This document shows positions 12,395-29,740 of a stretch of 64,000 bases of DNA, in pieces. The notes under the pieces are model-generated. The model saw only the letters and a list, made by a program, of their open reading frames with translations. It did no database searches and had not been told where the DNA came from. Source of the stretch: Stenotrophomonas maltophilia (lineage in GTDB: Bacteria; Pseudomonadota; Gammaproteobacteria; Xanthomonadales; Xanthomonadaceae); contig NZ_QFHO01000025.1 of the NCBI RefSeq assembly GCF_004920835.1, forward strand, positions 1-64,000. Direction: 5' to 3'. The position numbers and the translations under genes are program-made. Each line of letters starts with the position of its first letter. Positions within the stretch are counted from its first letter, which is position 1.

Positions 12395-13231
12395 TCAGCG
12401 TGGCTGTGCCACACCCGCGATCTGCACGCGGCGGTTCGGGGCCAGGCACGCGATCAGCTCGCGACGATTGCGCTGGTCGCACTGCACGACCGGCTCCGCC
12501 GCGCCACGTCCTTCGGCACTGATGCTGGCAGCCGGCACTCCACCCTGCACAAGCGCCATGCGCACCGCTTCGGCACGTCGCTGCGACAGCGTCTGGTTGT
12601 AGCTGGCACTGCCAATGCGATCGGTGTAGCCGGTCACCCGGATCGACTGCACCTGGCTGGCTTCGCGCACCTGTGCCAGCACGCCCTGCACTGCTTGCTG
12701 CCCCTCGGCGCTGAGCATCGCGCTGTCGAAACCGAACAGCGCGTCGGCGGACAAGCGCAGCGGCTGCTCCGGCAACGGCGCCGGTGCGGGCGGGGCCGGC
12801 GGCCGCGGCGGCTCCAGCACCGCCGCACATGATTCAGGTTTCCAGTAGCCGCCCTGGGCGATGCCCTTGTTGTCGAATCGCACCTGGAACTGGCAGGTGA
12901 AATACTCCGCGCCCTGCGCAGTGCGGAAGTTGAACAGGTAGTTCCACTCGCGCACGCCCCACATGCCTTCGTTGAAGTGCGGCGTACCCAGCAACGTGTA
13001 CAACTGGCGCTTGCTCATGCCCGGTGCGAAACGGCGCAGGTCGGCGACGTCGGGATAGATCCCTTCCTTCAGCGAGGCCTTCGAGGCCTCCGGGAATTGC
13101 ACGGCGGTGGCTTCGGCAGGACCCTCGGCGGCCGGCGCATGGCTGCGGCAGGCGGCCAGCAGGCCCATCCCCAGGATCAGGCCCAGCGTGGCGGCCAGCT
13201 GGCCGCTGCGGGCGATGCGATGCTGTTTCAT
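12395..13231 (-). CDS. TpgA-like lipoprotein: BamE/SmpA domain plus OmpA peptidoglycan-binding domain
   Basis: Lipoprotein of 278 residues. The signal ends in LGMGLLAAC (lipobox). A BamE/SmpA-like domain follows (RRFAPGMSKRQLYTLLGTPH...REWNYLFNF), then a Pro/Ala linker (RPPAPPAPAPLPEQP) and an OmpA C-terminal domain (FGFDSAMLSAEGQQAV, VTGYTDRIGSASYNQTLSQR, RRVQIAG) that binds peptidoglycan. This domain order is that of TpgA, which in Acinetobacter Tol 5 is encoded in an operon with the trimeric autotransporter AtaA and anchors it to the cell wall. Here it is also directly downstream of a trimeric autotransporter gene. ATG 13231 has GGGGGA upstream. The role as adhesin partner is inferred. Confidence 0.82.
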   Translation of the reverse strand: MKQHRIARSGQLAATLGLILGMGLLAACRSHAPAAEGPAEATAVQFPEASKASLKEGIYPDVADLRRFAPGMSKRQLYTLLGTPHFNEGMWGVREWNYLFNFRTAQGAEYFTCQFQVRFDNKGIAQGGYWKPESCAAVLEPPRPPAPPAPAPLPEQPLRLSADALFGFDSAMLSAEGQQAVQGVLAQVREASQVQSIRVTGYTDRIGSASYNQTLSQRRAEAVRMALVQGGVPAASISAEGRGAAEPVVQCDQRNRRELIACLAPNRRVQIAGVAQPR

Positions 13232-13260
13232 GTCATTCCCCCTATGGACGTTTCCGCGAT

Positions 13261-13284
13261 GCCGGGCCGCGGTTGCGGCCCGGC
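13261..13284. terminator. hairpin between adhesin and tpgA-like gene
   Basis: GCCGGGCCGC-GGTT-GCGGCCCGGC is a perfect 10-bp stem with a 4-base loop in the 61-base intergenic gap. With no T run it may attenuate or stabilise message, setting the adhesin-to-lipoprotein ratio. Confidence 0.5.
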
Positions 13285-13292
13285 GGCGGGGA

Positions 13293-16200
13293 TCACCACT
13301 GGATGCCGGCACCGACGGCCACACCGGCCTCGCCACGGCTGTTGGTCGAACCGCTGAACTTGTAGATCCAGCGACCACCTTCCGAGACACCGGAGATACC
13401 GACCGCAACACCGGATTCGCCGTTGTAGCTGCCGGCCGCGACCGAGGCCATGCTGCGACCCGCCTCACTGGGCTGCGGCAGTGCTGCGGTGGCCATCGCC
13501 GAGGCGATACCGGCCGAGGCGCGGTTGTCGGTCTTGCGCAGGTCACGCTCGAAGCCGCCCATGCGCTCGTCGGTGTAGGCCTTCGACCAGTCCAGGGTCT
13601 GCGCCATGCCCGACTTCAGCTGGTCGACATTGACTGCGTCGGTACCGGCGGTGCCGGCGGCGACGTTGCGCACCGTGGTCGGCCCGCTGTTGGTGTTGCC
13701 CAGCGTGACGCTGTTGTAGTTGGTCGCGCCGTTCACCGTGGTGTCGTAGCGGATCGTACCCTGCTGCGAGGCCTGGAGCTGACGCACGTTGACCGCATCG
13801 GTGGCCTGCGAGCCATCGGCCACGTTGACCACCTGGCGTTCGGCACCGCTGGCCCCCACCGAAACGGTGTTGGCCCGGTTCGCCACCGAACCCGCACCCA
13901 GTGCCACCGAGTTGTCGGCCTGTGCCTGCGAACCATTGCCGAGCGCGGTGGAGTTGGCACCGGCAGCGGTGGAGCCTGCGCCACCTGCGGCCGAGTTGGC
14001 ACCGCTGGCGGACGGATCGGCCAGGTTGTTGGTGTTGTTGGCGCGGAAGCTGCCGGCCACGTTGGTGATGTTCTGGATCTTCTGGTCGGTGTACTTCTTC
14101 GATTCGTCGATGGCGTAGTTCACGCCGTTCTTCAGCTGGCCGACATTGGTTGCGTCGTACGTATCGGAACCGTCGGCGACATGGGTGATCTTGCGCTCGC
14201 TGCCGGTGCTGCCGACCGACACTTCACCGGCCGAGTTGCTGGCGCCCGTCTGGCCGTAGGCACCGGTGTAGCCACTCTGTGCACCGACGCTGGCCACCGA
14301 GCCGGCACCCAGGGCGACACTGTTGCCGGCACTGGCGCTGGCACCGTTGCCGACCGCTACGCTGTTGGCGCCCGCTGCACTGGCCTGCGGGCCGACTGCC
14401 ACCGCTTCCGCACCTGCTGCCGTAGCGGCCGCTGCGGTCGAGTTCACCGCCAGGTAGGCGCTGCCGCCGCCGTTGGTGATGCGCTGGTTGAGGACCTTCA
14501 GCGAGCCGTCCACTGCGGTGAATGCGGCGGTGACATTGTTGTAGTCGCCGCTGGTGAAGGTCCCGTCGGTGGCGATGCTGGAGATGCTGAACTTCGGCGC
14601 GGTCCACACGTTGGTGGTGCCGTTGTAGGCGGTGGTGCCACCGAAGTAGTTGGCGACGGTGCTGTTCGTGCTGAACAGCTGGTCGCCGGTGATGGCATCA
14701 CTGCTGCCGGCCAGGATGCTGCCGGCGGCGACGTTGGTGATCTTTACCGTGCCGGTGCCGGTACCCGTCAGCGTCACGCTGTTGAGCACGTTGCCACTGC
14801 CATCGACGTCGTACTTCACGGCAAGCTTGTCGATCTCATCGGTCTGGTCGGCAACATTGGCCAGCGAGTTGCTGACCGCGTCGAAGGCGGTGCCGACGTC
14901 GTTGTAGCTGCCCTTGGTCACGGTGCCGTTGGCGGCGACGTTGTTGATCGAGTAGGTCGGTGCAGTCAGCACGCCGCTGGCGTTGACCGCTGCGCCACCA
15001 CCGAGGTGGGTAGCCACGGCCTGGTTGGCAGCGAACAGCTGGGCACCGTTGATGGCCTCGCTGCTGGTGGCACTGACCTGGCCCGGCCCGAGGTTGCGCA
15101 GCGTGGTGGCGGTGCCGGCCTGGCCCAGCGTGGCGCTGGCATAGTTGACGCTGCCGTCGCCGTTGAGGTCATAGCGCAGGGCTCCCTGCTCCGATGCCTG
15201 CAGCTGGCCGACGTTCACCGCATCGGTGGCGGCTGTACCCGCGGCCAGGTTGGTGACCTGGCGCTCGGCTCCGGCCGCGCCGATCGACACCGAGTTGGCA
15301 CGGTCGGCCAGGCTGCCGGCGCCCACCGCGATGCTGTTGGCGGCGGTGGCGCGGGCATTGGTGCCGACGGCGATCGAGTCGGTGCCGCTGGCCAGGGCTT
15401 CGGTGCCGGTCGAGTTCACCCGCAGGTACTTGGTGCCGCCGTTGCGGATGTCGGTGATCTGCGTGTTGAGGTTGACCAGCGAGCCGTCCACCGCGGCGAA
15501 TGCATCGGTGGCGTTCTCATACAAGCCCTTGGCAATGGCGCCGCCGGTGGAGATGGTGCTGATCTCGAACAGTGGTGCAGTGAAGGCACCACTGGCCGGA
15601 TCGAAGGCCGCGCGACCACCGAAGAAGCCGGCGATGGCGGCGTTGGTCGCCGCAAGCTGGCCGCCATTGACCGCTTCCAGGCTGCCGGCAGTGACCGCAC
15701 CAGCGGCCAGGTTGCCGATGGTGGTGGTGCCGGTGCCGGCACCGAGCGTGACCCGGCGATAGTTCGGATTGCCGGCACCGTCCAGGTCGTAGGTCACCGC
15801 AGCGGCCGCCACATCATCGATCAGGCTGATCGCGCCCTTCAACTGCGCCACGTTGACCGCATCAGTGTTGACGCTACCGGCGGCGACGTTGGTGATCTGC
15901 CGTTCGCCGCCACCGGCGGTGCCCACCGACACTTCACCGGCCGAAACCTGCGGAGCGGTGAGCCCGTACGCGCTGTAGCTGGCCTGGGCGCCGCGCAGCG
16001 CGGCCGAGCGGTAGCCCAGTGCGACCGAGTTCGCCTGGTTCGAGGTGGCCTCGGCACCGATCAGGGTCTGCCCGTTGGCCGTGCCCACCGCACTGTCGCC
16101 GACGATCACCGAATGACCCATGCGTGCCGCGTAGTCAGCGGTCGGCACACCGGTCGGGTTGCTCGGATCATTGGTGCCGGCACCCGGGAAGGCCACGTTG

Positions 16201-18635
16201 GCATCGACCTTCGGCAGCTCGTGGCGGGCATTGGCGCCGATCACCACCTCCTTCGAGCCGTTGGCGAAGGCGCCGTCGCCCATCAGCACCTGGTAGTCCT
16301 GCGCCGCATTGACTGCCCAGCACGAGATGTCGGCCAGGGCGATATCCAGGCACTTGGCCGCCCACGCCGGCGAATCCTTCGGCAGCAGCAGGCCAAGCAG
16401 GCCGCCGGGGTTGCCGTTGTTGATGTTGTAGATGTAGCTGTCGGAGGTGACGCCACCAATCAGGGTCAGGTGCGAGCTGCCGCCGGTAACGGCGCCACCC
16501 AGGCCATTGAGGGTGCTGCCGACCGGCGACAGGTTGACCAACGGCAGGCCGAGCACGTTGACCGTCGAGTAGGTCTGCATCACGTTGGCGTTGCTGAGCT
16601 TGAGGTTGCCGTTGCTCAGGTAGCCGTTGCCACCGAACAGGCTGGTGGTGGTCGGGCCGATCAGCTGGCCGACGTTGCCAACCAGGCCGCCGGTGCCGAT
16701 GATCAAACCCGCATTCGGGTCGGCCGGTGCCGGCGCCTTCGGACTGGCCGGCGGAATCGCCGAGGGCTTGGTCAGGCCGAGGCCGCTCAGCGTGCCACCG
16801 ACCAGGCCACCCACGGCACTGCCGAGATTGCCGATGGTGCCATTGAGGTTGCCGTTGAGCAGGTTGCCCACGGCACCGCCGACGTTGCCCAACGTGTTGC
16901 CCAGCAGGCCGCCGAGGCCACCGGTGCTGCCGCCGGTCGCGCCGTTGAGCACACCGCCAACGGTACTGCCCACCGCGCCAACCGTGTTGTTGAGCGTACC
17001 GCCCACTGCGCCGCCCACCGCACCCACCGCGCCAGCGGCGCCGTTGACGGTTCCACCAACCGCGCCGACGGCACCGTTGAGCGTGCCGCCCACCGTACTG
17101 CCGACAGAACCAACAGTGCCGTTGAGCGCACCGCCGACTGCTCCACCAACGGAGCCAACCGTGCCGTTCAGTGCGCCACCCACGGCACTACCGACTGCGC
17201 CGACGGTACCGACCGCTCCGTTGAGCGTGCCACCCACCGCGCTGCCAACAGTGCCAACGGTGCCGTTCAGTGCGCCACCCACGGCACTACCGACTGCGCC
17301 GACGGTACCGACCGCTCCGTTGAGCGTGCCGCCCACCGCGCTGCCAACAGTGCCAACGGTGCCGTTGAGCGCACCGCCCACGGCACCACCGACTGCGCCG
17401 ACGGTACCGACCGCGCCGTTGAGCGTGCCGCCCACCGCGCTGCCGACCGTGCCAACGGTGCCGTTCAGTGCACCGCCCACGGCACCACCGACTGCACCGA
17501 CGGTGCCGACCGCGCCGTTGAGCGTGCCGCCCACCGCGCCACCGACAGTGCCAACGGTGCCGTTCAGTGCGCCACCCACGGCACTACCGACTGCACCGAC
17601 TGTACCGACCGCGCCGTTGAGCGTGCCGCCCACCGCACTACCCGCGGAGCCGACCACGCCGCCCACCAGGCCACCCACACCCAGCGCACTGTTCTGTGCC
17701 GCGACCGTTGCCTGGCCGGCCAGCTTCAGATTGCGGTCGGCCACCACTTCCTGCCCATCCGGCGCCTGCAGGCGCACGTTGCCGGCGACGCCGGTATCAA
17801 AGGCTGCAGTAATCGCACGGTCATGGGTTTCGCCCGGCAGCTCTTCCTTGGCCGGCAGCGTGACCGCTGCTGTCGCTTTGACCTGGCCTTGGCCATTGAT
17901 CTGGTGCCCAGCCAGCTTCAGCTGCGAATCGACCTTGCCATCGACCGAGGTCTTCAGCCCAGGCAACGAACCCGCCGAGGTACTGCTGATGCCGGCCGCC
18001 GCCGTGGCGCCGGTATCGATCGAGGCCACCTGCGCACCGGCGACGCCAACGTTGGTTTTCGCCCGCGCATCCGCAGCCACGCCGAGCGGCGCATGCGCGG
18101 ACGGCGCAACCTGTGCCGCCAACGATGCATCAACCTTCGCTGCATTGGAGGTTGCATGACCCAGCCCGATATTAGCGCGGACATCGGCAGCCAGCGCCGG
18201 AACAGCAACCTGCTTCGGCGTGGTGTTCGCCGCCAGATTCACCTGCACGCTGGCCGGCAACACATCGCGCACCACCGGCAGCGAGGCAGTGCTCAGCTGC
18301 AGGCCGACACGTGCATCGGCGCTGATCGCAGGGCTGCTCTGCGCCTGGCGCGAGGCGGCGGCCAATGCCACTTCGGCATCGACCTTCACCGGCATCGGCT
18401 GCGCATACTTCGCGGCCAATGCCTGCAGGTCGCGCAGCGATTGATTGGTTTCTGATGCTCCTGCGTGGCCGCTGGCCAGCGCACACAGCAGTGCCAGCGC
18501 TAGCACAGAGGGCATCAGCAGGACACTGCGCGGATCGCGCGCGGCACCGCCGCCGCTATCGCCGGTGGCCAGTTCCGAGGCCACAACCAGAGCATTGAGC
18601 TGGCGGTTCCATACACGCCGGTAGATGCGGTTCAT
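13293..18635 (-). CDS. giant YadA-type trimeric autotransporter adhesin
   Basis: Surface adhesin of 1780 residues. Domain order: extended signal peptide region (MNRIYRRVWNRQLNALVVAS), Ala-rich non-repetitive region to about residue 325, a Gly-rich VGG-LNG-VGTVG repeat region (about 325-618), YadA-head beta-roll repeats (NSVALGY, NSIAVGAGS), three FGG-like domains (near residues 998, 1202 and 1325), five neck motifs (DAVNVxQL type) joining coiled-coil stalks, and a YadA anchor in the last 90 residues ending AGVAVGAGIQW. The anchor trimerises to form the outer-membrane barrel. ATG 18635 fits the ESPR and has GGGGGAA at good spacing; an ATG two codons earlier is too close. It is followed by a TpgA-like gene and preceded by an AraC regulator on the same strand. 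Confidence 0.93.
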   Translation of the reverse strand: MNRIYRRVWNRQLNALVVASELATGDSGGGAARDPRSVLLMPSVLALALLCALASGHAGASETNQSLRDLQALAAKYAQPMPVKVDAEVALAAASRQAQSSPAISADARVGLQLSTASLPVVRDVLPASVQVNLAANTTPKQVAVPALAADVRANIGLGHATSNAAKVDASLAAQVAPSAHAPLGVAADARAKTNVGVAGAQVASIDTGATAAAGISSTSAGSLPGLKTSVDGKVDSQLKLAGHQINGQGQVKATAAVTLPAKEELPGETHDRAITAAFDTGVAGNVRLQAPDGQEVVADRNLKLAGQATVAAQNSALGVGGLVGGVVGSAGSAVGGTLNGAVGTVGAVGSAVGGALNGTVGTVGGAVGGTLNGAVGTVGAVGGAVGGALNGTVGTVGSAVGGTLNGAVGTVGAVGGAVGGALNGTVGTVGSAVGGTLNGAVGTVGAVGSAVGGALNGTVGTVGSAVGGTLNGAVGTVGAVGSAVGGALNGTVGSVGGAVGGALNGTVGSVGSTVGGTLNGAVGAVGGTVNGAAGAVGAVGGAVGGTLNNTVGAVGSTVGGVLNGATGGSTGGLGGLLGNTLGNVGGAVGNLLNGNLNGTIGNLGSAVGGLVGGTLSGLGLTKPSAIPPASPKAPAPADPNAGLIIGTGGLVGNVGQLIGPTTTSLFGGNGYLSNGNLKLSNANVMQTYSTVNVLGLPLVNLSPVGSTLNGLGGAVTGGSSHLTLIGGVTSDSYIYNINNGNPGGLLGLLLPKDSPAWAAKCLDIALADISCWAVNAAQDYQVLMGDGAFANGSKEVVIGANARHELPKVDANVAFPGAGTNDPSNPTGVPTADYAARMGHSVIVGDSAVGTANGQTLIGAEATSNQANSVALGYRSAALRGAQASYSAYGLTAPQVSAGEVSVGTAGGGERQITNVAAGSVNTDAVNVAQLKGAISLIDDVAAAAVTYDLDGAGNPNYRRVTLGAGTGTTTIGNLAAGAVTAGSLEAVNGGQLAATNAAIAGFFGGRAAFDPASGAFTAPLFEISTISTGGAIAKGLYENATDAFAAVDGSLVNLNTQITDIRNGGTKYLRVNSTGTEALASGTDSIAVGTNARATAANSIAVGAGSLADRANSVSIGAAGAERQVTNLAAGTAATDAVNVGQLQASEQGALRYDLNGDGSVNYASATLGQAGTATTLRNLGPGQVSATSSEAINGAQLFAANQAVATHLGGGAAVNASGVLTAPTYSINNVAANGTVTKGSYNDVGTAFDAVSNSLANVADQTDEIDKLAVKYDVDGSGNVLNSVTLTGTGTGTVKITNVAAGSILAGSSDAITGDQLFSTNSTVANYFGGTTAYNGTTNVWTAPKFSISSIATDGTFTSGDYNNVTAAFTAVDGSLKVLNQRITNGGGSAYLAVNSTAAAATAAGAEAVAVGPQASAAGANSVAVGNGASASAGNSVALGAGSVASVGAQSGYTGAYGQTGASNSAGEVSVGSTGSERKITHVADGSDTYDATNVGQLKNGVNYAIDESKKYTDQKIQNITNVAGSFRANNTNNLADPSASGANSAAGGAGSTAAGANSTALGNGSQAQADNSVALGAGSVANRANTVSVGASGAERQVVNVADGSQATDAVNVRQLQASQQGTIRYDTTVNGATNYNSVTLGNTNSGPTTVRNVAAGTAGTDAVNVDQLKSGMAQTLDWSKAYTDERMGGFERDLRKTDNRASAGIASAMATAALPQPSEAGRSMASVAAGSYNGESGVAVGISGVSEGGRWIYKFSGSTNSRGEAGVAVGAGIQW
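17121..17650. repeat. 99-bp tandem repeats in the adhesin gene
   Basis: The marker GTTGAGCG starts at 17121, 17220, 17319, 17418, 17517 and 17616, exactly 99 bp apart. Each unit encodes 33 residues made of two VGGxLNG half-units. More diverged half-units continue to about 16780. Copies at 17220-17616 are nearly identical in DNA, pointing to recent duplication or conversion. Units keep the frame, so copy-number change would alter adhesin length only. Confidence 0.9.
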
Positions 18636-18664
18636 GAGCATTTCCCCCGTAGGCGAACAACTGG

Positions 18665-18870: not shown

Positions 18871-19881
18871 TCAGGCCGGCTGGCCGATCTGCGCCGGTGC
18901 GCGCATCAAGGTATCGCGCGGCAGTTCGCCGAAGACCTTGCGGTAATTGTCGGCGAAGCGCGACAGGTCCCACAGGCCGCAGCTGAGCGCGATGGCCTTC
19001 ACCGAGCGACGGCTGGAATCGGCCATCGACAGGCTGCGGCAGGCCGCGCACAAGCGCAGCATCGACAGGTAACGATTGGGCGAGGTACCGAACAGGTCCT
19101 CGAAGGCATAGCGCAGGCCGCGCTCGCTGACGCCGGCCGCATCACAGATTTCATTCATGTAGATATTGCGGCGCAGGTTGAGCCGCATGAAGTTCTCCGC
19201 ACGCTGCGCAATCAGATAGTGCGTCCGGCGCGCACGGCTGCATCCCGGGCGGTCTGCCGCACCGGCGCCCAGCAGGGCCTGCACGTGCCCATGCAGAAGG
19301 CGTTCGGTTTCATCCGGCTGCAGTGCAATGCCCTGCCCCAACTGCTGGTGCAGTTGCTGGTAATGCCCCGCCAGCGGCGCTGAATCACTGGCCAGGTTGA
19401 ACAAGGACAGCGCCTGGCCTGCGGGCGGCGTGCTGCGCAGGCTCAGCTCGGTCAGCTTGCGCTGCACGCGTACCACCGGCACCAGCATCAGGGTCATATG
19501 GGTGCCGGGGCTCAGCGTGAACTCACTGATACCCTCGGGCATCACGGTCAACGCCATTCCCGGCGTGAGTGGCACTCCGTGGCACCAGCTCAGCGTTTCA
19601 TCGGTGGCGTGGATATACCCCAGCATCGCCCAGTCCGGCGGCAGCATGAAGCGCCCACGGCAATGGAAACCACAGCTGATGCTGCAGAACAGGGCCTCCT
19701 CGTGCACGCGCGAAGCGAAGGCCGCCCGTGGCCCGTTGCCATCGAGCAGAAGCAATTCGACATCACACACACGAAGCACGCCGCTCAGCGTCGCCAGGTC
19801 GATCGACCGCAGGCCGCTGTCGTCACTGTCTCCTACCCCACCATCGACCATGACAGTGTCGTCCCCCCGTTGATCCGTCAT
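18871..19881 (-). CDS. AraC-family transcriptional regulator
   Basis: Regulator of about 336 residues. The C-terminal 110 residues carry the two helix-turn-helix units of AraC/XylS (IYMNEICDAAGVSERGLRYA, KAIALSCGLWDLSRFADNYR, then FGELPRDTL). The N-terminal part has the cupin-like pattern of AraC effector domains (FHCRGRFMLP, TLSPGTHMTLMLVP). It resembles the FeaR/AraC-binding-like group. Start 19881 is an ATG with only a weak ribosome-binding site; 19914 and 19851 are alternatives. Position directly upstream of, and on the strand of, the adhesin gene and divergent from the tad locus suggests it controls either or both. Confidence 0.8.
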   Translation of the reverse strand: MTDQRGDDTVMVDGGVGDSDDSGLRSIDLATLSGVLRVCDVELLLLDGNGPRAAFASRVHEEALFCSISCGFHCRGRFMLPPDWAMLGYIHATDETLSWCHGVPLTPGMALTVMPEGISEFTLSPGTHMTLMLVPVVRVQRKLTELSLRSTPPAGQALSLFNLASDSAPLAGHYQQLHQQLGQGIALQPDETERLLHGHVQALLGAGAADRPGCSRARRTHYLIAQRAENFMRLNLRRNIYMNEICDAAGVSERGLRYAFEDLFGTSPNRYLSMLRLCAACRSLSMADSSRRSVKAIALSCGLWDLSRFADNYRKVFGELPRDTLMRAPAQIGQPA

Positions 19882-20740: not shown

Positions 20741-20807
20741 GCGGCGCTCCAGGTTGGACCAGGGACAGCAACTGCCTACCGTCCACTGACGGACAATGGA
20801 GTGTGCG

Positions 20808-21353
20808 ATGACACTGCTGGGACTGTTGGCCATCGGCGTGTGCCTGCGGATCGCGATCAGCGACCTGTATGCCCGCCGGGTGCCCAACACCTGGCTGCTG
20901 TCGGCGTGCGCGATCACGGTTGTCCTGATCATCGCCGGCCAGTTCAACGCGCCGCGCCTGCCGTGGGGTTCCCACGTCGCCGGCGCGGCGCTGGGCCTGG
21001 TAGCGCTGCTGCCGTTCCATGCAGTGCGCTGGATGGGCGCGGGCGACGTCAAGTTCTTCTCGGTACTGGGCCTGATGCTGGGCTGGCAGGCATTGCTGCC
21101 GATCTGGATCGCGGCCAGCCTCGCTGCCGGTGCCCATGCGGCGATCGTCCTGGTGTCGCGCCGACTGAGTTCATTGTTGCCGTTCGGGCTGCAGGCCCAG
21201 GTAGACCGCGCCAGTTCGCACTGGCAATCACATCCTGCACTCCGTGACATGCAGAGCGCCCGGCAGGGACGCCACGGCATTCCCTATGCAGCCTACCTGG
21301 CGATTTCCGCCATCGGCTGGATCCTCATCAGCGCCTACGGAGGTGTGTCATGA
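20808..21353 (+). CDS. cpaA: Flp prepilin peptidase CpaA/TadV
   Basis: Membrane aspartyl protease of 181 residues that trims Flp and TadE/TadG-like pseudopilins. The two catalytic aspartates are in ISDLYARRVPN and MGAGDVKFF. Five to six membrane segments are visible. ATG 20808 was preferred over 20796 because GGAG lies 6 bases before it. Overlaps the tadE start by 4 bases (ATGA). Confidence 0.9.
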   Translation: MTLLGLLAIGVCLRIAISDLYARRVPNTWLLSACAITVVLIIAGQFNAPRLPWGSHVAGAALGLVALLPFHAVRWMGAGDVKFFSVLGLMLGWQALLPIWIAASLAAGAHAAIVLVSRRLSSLLPFGLQAQVDRASSHWQSHPALRDMQSARQGRHGIPYAAYLAISAIGWILISAYGGVS

Positions 21354-21826
21354 ACTCCCGCAGCCCCCGCCGGCAGCGTGGCGTCGCCAGCATCGAGTTC
21401 GCGTTGATGCTGATGCTTGGACTGTTGCCGCTGCTGATGTTCACCTTTTCTGGCGTGATGATCATGGCTGCGCAGCAGACCCTGGCCACCGCCTCGGCCG
21501 AGGGTGCGCGCGCATCGTTGCGCTATGGCAATGCCAATGAGCGCCGTACAGCAGCATGTGTCGCGGCGCGCAACTCGATGCAATGGCTGTTGAAGTTCTC
21601 GGCGCAGACCGTCGACTGCAGCAATGGCGGCAGCAACGCCGTGGTGGTGTCGCCGCAGGCGCCCTGCGCGGGCTTGGCCACGGCCCAGTGCATGACCGTG
21701 ACCGTCAGCTACGACTACGCCAGCCATCCCTTCCTGCCCGGCACCGCCACGCTCTACAAGTGGGTGATGCAGGCCCCCATCCGCAGCGTCGCGGTCGCAC
21801 AGCTCGACCTCGGCAGCGGTAACTGA
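21350..21826 (+). CDS. tadE: TadE-like pseudopilin
   Basis: Protein of 158 residues with a TadE-type N-terminus (QRGVASIEFALMLMLGLLPL): a short basic leader, a Gly before the hydrophobic helix and the conserved Glu, as in other pseudopilins processed by CpaA. The rest is a periplasmic domain with cysteines (TAACVA, TVDCSN, APCAG, AQCM) that may pair. It is a minor component required for Flp pilus assembly. Confidence 0.85.
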   Translation: MNSRSPRRQRGVASIEFALMLMLGLLPLLMFTFSGVMIMAAQQTLATASAEGARASLRYGNANERRTAACVAARNSMQWLLKFSAQTVDCSNGGSNAVVVSPQAPCAGLATAQCMTVTVSYDYASHPFLPGTATLYKWVMQAPIRSVAVAQLDLGSGN

Positions 21827-21849
21827 CGATCGGTACAGGAGACGGTTTC

Positions 21850-22887
21850 ATGCTCAAGTTGACCCGCATCGCCGCCGTTGCCCTGATCGGGCTGGCCGTG
21901 CTGCTGGCCCTGGTCGCCTTCATGATCGGGCGCAAGCCCGACGCCCCGGCCTCAGCGGCTCCGGTCGCGCAGAGCGAGGCCCAGACGTTCACGGTGGTGG
22001 AAGCGGTGGCGCGCCTGCCGGCCGGCGAACCGATCACCGCCAACGGGCTGCGCCTTGCGCAGCGCACCGCGCCGGTCGCCGGTGCCGCCACCAGCATCGC
22101 TACCGTCGTCGGCAAGGTGCCGGTGCAGGATATCGCCGAAGGCACCGCCATCAGCAGCAGCGCACTGGCGCAGGGATTCTCGCTGCAGCTGCGCCCGGGC
22201 GAGCGCGCCCTTGCGGTGCCGGTCGATGAACTGGTCGGCGCTGGCAACCGCATCCTGCCCGGCGACTTCGTCGACGTCTTCCTCAACCTGCGCAATGCCC
22301 AGCCCAACGCCAGCGGCCCGGGCGAGGCTGCACAGACGCGCCTGCTGCTGTCCCGCCTGCGCGTACTCAGCTATGGCCAGCAGGATATTGCCCCGGCCAC
22401 CAGCGATGCTGTCGCCAGCAACGACGGCGACAACCGCAACGACCCGCGTGCCGCCGACATCACCGGAAGCGGCAGCAGCCACACCACGGGCAACGAAGCC
22501 ACCCAACCGGCACGCAGTGCGGTGCTGGCAGTCCCGGTGGCCGATGCCAATCGCCTGCTGCTGGGTGCGCAGCAGGGCAAGCTGTTCCTGGCCCTGCGCA
22601 ATCCGGCTGATACCGGCCTGCCCGACCTCGCCCTGTTCCCGCAGTCGCGCGGGGTGATCGATCCGTTGCGCGGCCTGGATGCGGAACAGCAGCTTGCGCT
22701 GCAACGACCGGAGAACCATGCCTTCGCCGGCATCGATGACGATGCGCTGGCTGGCCGCGGCACCGCTCCGGCGCGCGCCAATCCACAGGCGCCGGCACGC
22801 GCACCTGCGACGCGCCACAGGACCCAGCGCGCGCCTGGCATCGAAATCATCCGCGGGGACAGCTCTGCTCCCCGTGGTTCCCTTTGA
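21850..22887 (+). CDS. cpaB: Flp pilus assembly protein CpaB/RcpC
   Basis: Protein of 345 residues with an N-terminal membrane anchor (VALIGLAVLLALVAFMIG), an SAF-like domain at about residues 45-110 (VVEAVARLPAGEPITANGL) and the CpaB signature GERALAVPVDELVGAGNRI, LPGDFVDVFL. It is periplasmic and works with the CpaC secretin. Its C-terminus is Ala/Arg/Pro-rich. AGGAGA sits 9 bases before the ATG. Confidence 0.9.
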   Translation: MLKLTRIAAVALIGLAVLLALVAFMIGRKPDAPASAAPVAQSEAQTFTVVEAVARLPAGEPITANGLRLAQRTAPVAGAATSIATVVGKVPVQDIAEGTAISSSALAQGFSLQLRPGERALAVPVDELVGAGNRILPGDFVDVFLNLRNAQPNASGPGEAAQTRLLLSRLRVLSYGQQDIAPATSDAVASNDGDNRNDPRAADITGSGSSHTTGNEATQPARSAVLAVPVADANRLLLGAQQGKLFLALRNPADTGLPDLALFPQSRGVIDPLRGLDAEQQLALQRPENHAFAGIDDDALAGRGTAPARANPQAPARAPATRHRTQRAPGIEIIRGDSSAPRGSL

Positions 22888-28805: not shown

Positions 28806-29740
28806 TGCCTGCCCTGCGCAACACCTGCCTGCTGTTTGCTCTCGTCGCCGTCGCCGGCGGCTGCTCATCGACCACGCCGAAGTATCTGCGTGCGCCCAGC
28901 CTGGCCGCGCCCGAACCGGCACCGCAGGACAGCCGCAACGCCTACCTGGAGCTGATCGAGCGCATGCAGCAGCAGGGGGCGTGGTATGCCTCGCTGGCGC
29001 ATGTCGATGCCTTCCGCCAGCGCTACGGGGACCCGCCGGCGTTGCGCCTGCTGCAGGCCGATGCATTGCGCGAGACTGGACAGGCCGACGCGGCGATCGC
29101 CCTGTATCGCGACCTGTCCAGCGGTCCGCAGGCGGCTGCGGCGGCACATGGCCTCGGCCTGATCGCTGCGCGCCGCGATGACGATGCCGGCAGCGAGCAG
29201 GCGTTGGCGCAGGCCACCCAGCTGCAGCCATTGAATACCAGCTACCTGGGTGACCTCGGCTATGCACGGCTGCGCGCGGGCCGCTTCGAGCAGGCGCGCG
29301 AACCGCTGGCCAAGGCGCTGGAGTTGTCACCAGGCAACGCCAAGGCCACCGCCAACCTGGCGCTGTGGGCGGTGCTTCGTGGCGATACCGCCACCGCCGA
29401 GCGTCTTGCCCAGCAGGCCAACCTCAACGAAGAAACCCGCAACAGCATCCAACAGCAGGCCGCACAGATCCGCGCCCGCCTGCAGCAACGCCACGCCGCT
29501 GCCGCTGCCGCTGCCGCTGCCGCTGCCGCTGCCGCTGCTGCTGCTGCGGCAACGGTCACGCCACCCGCCCCAGCGACGGCGACGGCGACGGCGATGGCCA
29601 GCAGCAAAACAACAGGCAGCACACGACTGGCAGCCGAACCGCGCCGCGATGCCCGTGATGCGCGCGATCCGCAGCGCCTGCCGCCTTCGATGCTGGAACG
29701 CTTCAGCGCCTCCGACCGCCCGAACGGGAACACACCATGA
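28805..29740 (+). CDS. tadD: TadD-like TPR lipoprotein with polyalanine linker
   Basis: Lipoprotein of 311 residues; the lipobox Cys is residue 20 (AVAGGC). TPR-like helices cover about 45-215 (ALRETGQADAAIALYRDL, GYARLRAGRFEQAREPLAKA). Residues 230-249 are a run of 19 alanines coded by a GCCGCT tract, followed by a Thr/Ala/Arg-rich tail. TadD proteins are pilotins or assembly factors for the secretin. Both ends overlap neighbours (1 base with tadC, 4 bases with the DUF3613 gene). Confidence 0.85.
   Translation: MPALRNTCLLFALVAVAGGCSSTTPKYLRAPSLAAPEPAPQDSRNAYLELIERMQQQGAWYASLAHVDAFRQRYGDPPALRLLQADALRETGQADAAIALYRDLSSGPQAAAAAHGLGLIAARRDDDAGSEQALAQATQLQPLNTSYLGDLGYARLRAGRFEQAREPLAKALELSPGNAKATANLALWAVLRGDTATAERLAQQANLNEETRNSIQQQAAQIRARLQQRHAAAAAAAAAAAAAAAAAAATVTPPAPATATATAMASSKTTGSTRLAAEPRRDARDARDPQRLPPSMLERFSASDRPNGNTP
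29495..29545 (+). repeat. GCCGCT hexanucleotide microsatellite in tadD
   Basis: Seven perfect GCCGCT copies (29495-29536) followed by three GCT triplets. All units keep the reading frame, so slippage would change the length of the polyalanine linker without stopping translation. Confidence 0.9.

Follow-up and report, generated by a model that had tools for sequence, protein, structure and literature searches.

A glycine-rich tandem-repeat segment that varies in length between species in a predicted trimeric autotransporter adhesin of the Stenotrophomonas maltophilia complex

Length-variable stalks are already known among trimeric autotransporter adhesins (TAAs) from BadA, as is the variable-stalk concept from the Periscope Proteins. 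The repetitive neck/stalk of the TAA BadA of Bartonella henselae differs in length among isolates, a variation that has been attributed to recombination (PMC8859334). In Periscope Proteins (SasG, Rib, Sgo_0707 and CdrA) the number of tandem, DNA-similar repeats sets the projection of the N-terminal domain (PMC8201768). Their definition covers monomeric single chains of individually folding domains, and TAAs are explicitly excluded as being without tandem repeat domains (PMC9704523). A coiled coil of 11/3, 15/4 or 18/5 periodicity is either right-handed or almost straight, with YadA reaching 19/5 (PMC4786415), and undecads are reported for NadA3 (PMC6191539).

The Stenotrophomonas maltophilia complex is an opportunistic pathogen complex whose YadA-type adhesins are scarcely studied in the literature searched. 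Three YadA-family proteins are mentioned in the K279a genome paper of 2008 (PMC2643945), and a synonymous change in SMD_2503 arose in one ciprofloxacin-evolved population (PMC11047544). No paper on the repeat described here was found in that literature.

The adhesin gene and its surroundings

The window, the whole 64,000-nucleotide stretch of DNA analysed, comes from a genome of the complex (G000) assembled in 81 contigs. The features of the adhesin locus, in window coordinates, are as follows.

13293..18641, minus strand: gene of the predicted trimeric autotransporter adhesin, 1782 aa (open reading frame; ESPR, YadA_head, YadA_stalk and YadA_anchor; orthologue of D457 SMD_2503)
18492..18635, minus strand: extended signal peptide region (ESPR), aa 3-50 (Pfam PF13018, E 7e-12)
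17691..18491, minus strand: N-terminal passenger domain, aa 51-317, without a Pfam family; rapidly evolving, with a tree that conflicts with that of the remaining gene
16764..17690, minus strand: whole glycine-rich segment, aa 318-626, 309 aa, comprising array and ancestral linker; the sole strongly length-variable part of the protein
17139..17633, minus strand: five full 33-aa (18+15) tandem units (TRF and in-frame unit comparison)
16941..17138, minus strand: degenerate blocks of 15/11/18 aa, akin to the tandem units (block comparison)
16764..16907, minus strand: ancestral short Gly/Leu linker, common to outgroups without the array, predicted helical (alignment with outgroups; AF2)
13296..16763, minus strand: conserved C-terminal part with proline-rich hinge PSAIPP, YadA heads and stalks, and membrane anchor
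13296..13478, minus strand: membrane anchor, YadA_anchor (Pfam PF03895, E 6e-15; last 61 residues)
12395..13231, minus strand: lipoprotein with BamE and OmpA domains, putative TpgA-like partner, directly downstream of the TAA gene (Pfam)

Pfam placed YadA head repeats (PF05658) in five stretches of the passenger and stalk repeats (PF05662) in seven. By anchor, head/stalk repeats and ESPR the 1782-residue protein is a trimeric autotransporter adhesin (type Vc), with trimer formation and surface display predicted. An ESPR is common among TAAs, yet it is no requirement of the class. The D457 orthologue, identified by matching locus coordinates, is annotated as an ESPR-type protein. NCBIfam models for Vomp, BimA, EmaA, Ata and YadA all scored far under their cut-offs for this adhesin. 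On the plus strand, a reading frame that is also 1782 aa long (13107-18455) was discarded, being judged an antisense shadow of the kind that arises when DNA is high in GC.

The BamE + OmpA gene adjoins the TAA gene in nearly all loci fetched, those of Rhodanobacter and Dyella included. The minus strand also carries an AraC-type regulator gene (18871-19764), and Flp/Tad pilus genes (prepilin peptidase, TadE-like, RcpC/CpaB) start near the adhesin gene on the plus strand (20796-22887). A GCCGCT hexanucleotide repeat of about 8.3 copies, possibly coding for poly-Ala, was seen at 29495-29544.

Within the adhesin itself, the N-terminal domain has a dN several-fold higher than the C-terminal part, reaching about ten times its value, and the N-terminal tree disagrees with the C-part tree. 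Together these make domain exchange in the N-terminal passenger, upstream of the array, likely.

Repeat units and length differences between species

The initial annotation had described 33-residue VGG-LNG units repeated at 99 bp from six starts. TRF recovers this repeat at 17100-17636, with a period of 99, 5.4 copies, 91% match and no indels. The coding strand is minus, however, and the full in-frame units number five; the six starts mark phase points within this one array. Each full unit of 33 residues reads VGGTLNGAVGTVGAVG[SG]A (18) followed by VGGALNGTVG[TS]VG[SG]A (15), a compound of two halves with one VGGxLNG motif per half. Degenerate blocks of 15, 11 and 18 residues run on past the full units to about 16940.

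DNA identity among the five units is 85-94%, well short of the almost unchanged copies first described. Synonymous codons match at 78% of same-residue positions, whereas 48 +/- 4% is expected from the codon usage of the gene (maximum 61% in 1000 draws). Because codon agreement so far exceeds this expectation, the five units share descent, well beyond chance. Pairwise dS among them is 0.18-0.50 (mean about 0.29), as large as the 0.23-0.45 that separates the window from other complex species over the C-terminal part (1156 residues). The expansion may therefore be as old as the species, and the 99-bp unit is common to eight or nine of these, so the proposed recency was not borne out.

Unit near-identity might instead stem mainly from a very recent duplication, or from an assembly artefact, in the window strain. 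Units do cluster by genome, and with an assembly in 81 contigs the window's own copy number may be mis-assembled. This explanation is largely contradicted by the match between unit dS and between-species dS and by the presence of arrays in single-contig genomes, and we consider it scarcely credible. A 298-bp exact direct repeat inside the array of another genome (L102) marks a very recent duplication in that species, so such events do happen in other members of the complex.

A period of 99 bp is the best in eight genomes, with about 3 to 7.6 copies, and the higher-order period differs by lineage (99, 135, 78/123, 111, 144 or 45/90 bp). The 33-aa units of the window are 0.908 identical among themselves and at most 0.848 identical to any other genome's unit. 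Across nine genomes, the nearest neighbour of a 33-aa unit lay in its own genome in 57% of cases versus 10% by chance; for 12-residue blocks from 26 genomes the figures were 44% and 4%. This clustering fits the pattern of lineage-specific amplification or conversion, in agreement with the expansion or conversion suggested at the outset.

Segment length was measured between conserved SALG and SAIPP marks in one genome per species, so that the variation seen is between species. The 25 complex genomes yielded 25 different lengths, from 203 to 474 aa (309 aa in the window). In-frame variation of copy number and length, which the initial annotation had anticipated, is thus found between species, and at this level copy number is not constant. 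The flanks are conserved: the C-terminal part spans 1156-1158 aa in all 26 genomes, and the N-terminal part 307-317 aa in most and 277 aa in five. Since 11 of the 25 complex genomes are single-contig assemblies, the variation is not only short-read collapse. Among the loci fetched, a contig labelled Bacillus subtilis SK7B5 (L059) carries a Stenotrophomonas-type TAA locus, a probable contamination.

At the base of the complex, S. maltophilia Sm46PAILV (L042) has 152 aa of degenerate blocks, and five outgroups (L105, L106, L107, L052 and L045) have a 58-62 aa linker without the array. This linker aligns to the C-terminal end of the segment; the array therefore grew beside an ancestral short linker. 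Two more distant species outside the complex (L056 and L064) carry their own 11-residue VGNVVGGVSNT repeats at the same linker position; these hendecad-length repeats are independent of the complex array. L090, the genome closest to the window by N-terminal part (dS 0.085), has near-identical array edges and a reorganised interior (309 aa in the window versus 241 aa). In EA1 (L041, about 8770) the loss of one base in the array shifts the frame and truncates the protein, with a stop at codon 631; if the loss is no sequencing error, arrays may also serve as an off-switch for the gene. The natural series of 58, 152 and 203-474 aa varies in essentially one TAA segment, so the effect of stalk length is directly addressable.

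Periodicity and predicted fold of the array

The array comprises about 35% Gly and 18% Val, with 0.3% charged residues versus 12% in the rest of the protein. No Pfam family, YadA_stalk (PF05662) included, matched within 16764-17690. No second copy of the array was found in its own genome, where a plus-strand match was the antisense shadow. A search of 369 genomes of the class gave only weak Gly/Ala-rich matches outside the genus; the best (G363, E 6e-15) proved to be an antisense frame of an Ala-rich repeat protein and was rejected. Searching sequences of solved structures returned only low-complexity matches (a tape-measure protein at E 5e-4, and cutinases), judged to be composition-driven.

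Distances between VGGxLN motifs were mainly 15 (245 cases), 11 (49), 18 (46) and 22 (22) residues, with 8, 19, 25, 26, 30, 33, 36, 37 and a few longer values rarer; none of the distances counted was 12-14, 16-17 or 20-21. Nearly all block lengths lie near multiples of 3.67 (8, 11, 15, 18, 19, 22, 25, 26, 30, 33 and 37). Within the repeat part, V/L/I residues are spaced by 3 (589) or 4 (1248) residues and by 5 in none of about 1,990 intervals, other spacings being mostly 1 (adjacent pairs) or sums (7, 8) that arise when a core residue has been substituted. In four-residue segments, about 99% of core positions are preceded by Ala or Thr. Fourier analysis of hydrophobicity peaked at 3.66-3.75 residues in 27 of 27 arrays, with a power of 5-21 versus a shuffle maximum of 0.37. 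This periodicity falls inside the 3.63-3.9 range of right-handed coiled coils. The initial view that the repeat is unlike YadA heads or stalks is upheld by the Pfam result, but the hydrophobic period of 3.7 residues makes it probable that the array is nonetheless a coiled-coil stalk, albeit one with an unusual composition.

The same composition, together with an array length that changes in every genome, could also describe a flexible, elastin-like disordered linker drifting neutrally in length, with the 3/4 spacing produced by slippage of the 9- and 12-bp subrepeats of which the DNA is built. Such a linker would hardly keep a hydrophobic register free of any 5-residue break, nor place Ala or Thr so regularly before the core. 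The degenerate array of L042, moreover, holds the register with D/E/K/R elsewhere and is predicted helical. On this evidence a disordered linker appears unlikely.

AF2 modelled the window segment as short strands in a beta-solenoid-like arrangement (pLDDT about 47-71), with V / LN / VGTV strands recurring per block, as though each 15-18 residue block were a single rung in a rod of beta-solenoid or beta-roll type. When given near-perfect repeats, AF2 has been documented to draw beta-solenoids that are unrealistic (PMC11795689). For the degenerate L042 homologue it returned one 84-residue helix, with ten-residue blocks up to pLDDT 89, and a second helix over the ancestral linker. Because the artefact is documented for near-perfect repeats, the L042 model was weighted above that of the window, whose solenoid was set aside as a probable artefact given its low pLDDT, the documented pattern and the L042 helix. 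Blocks of 11 and 22 residues are also too frequent for rungs of this kind, as the same rung would not close. A solenoid or roll is thus quite improbable.

We therefore favour, at a probability of roughly two in three, an array that forms a coiled-coil stalk, poor in charge and rich in glycine, and gives the TAA a spacer whose length is changed by in-frame recombination. Each 33-aa unit would add about nine turns of right-handed, almost charge-free coiled coil, presumably trimeric, between the fast-evolving N-terminal domain and the conserved YadA-type stalk and anchor. Steps of 11, 15, 18 or 33 residues would be gained or lost when similar in-frame units recombine unequally or slip. Such a step would alter the distance of the N-terminal domain from the cell, and with it perhaps adhesion, while coil register and reading frame stay intact. 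If helical at 0.15 nm per residue, the rod would measure about 30-70 nm across species.

A glycine content of 35% is extreme for an alpha-helix and counts against a helical array; it poses the structural question of whether a one-third-glycine sequence can form a trimeric helical rod. Mutation alone could also favour steps of 3 and 4 residues, since the DNA consists of 9- and 12-bp subunits. More tentatively, the array may represent a coiled coil of a new kind, in which a helical rod of about one third glycine carries almost no charge. Its length steps of 11, 15, 18 and 22 residues would then be set by the coil register, so that recombination would adjust reach in quantised, always-functional steps.

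Comparison with known adhesins

The adhesin resembles YadA-type TAAs (YadA, UspA1, NadA and AtaA/Ata) in its ESPR, YadA heads, stalks and anchor, and that class is known to include right-handed coils of 15/4, 18/5 or 11/3 periodicity (PMC4786415). It differs from them in an array that matches no Pfam stalk or head and is rich in Gly and nearly devoid of charge, with repeats that are homogeneous in DNA and lie N-terminal of the YadA-like part. The BamE/OmpA-type putative partner that follows the TAA gene recalls, in domains and adjacency, the Ata-TpgA pair of Acinetobacter.

BadA is likewise a TAA with a length-variable stalk; the variation described here is between species. Its neck/stalk repeats are multi-domain and lie in an island with pseudogenes, whereas the element that varies here, within one gene, is a simple step of 11/15/18 aa in the probable coil. 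As in the Periscope Proteins, the number of similar tandem repeats in the stalk varies, here between species. The adhesin would work like a Periscope stalk, yet it is no member of that group, as its gene encodes a TAA and is excluded by definition. Periscope-like length variation is thereby found in a class described as being without tandem repeat domains.
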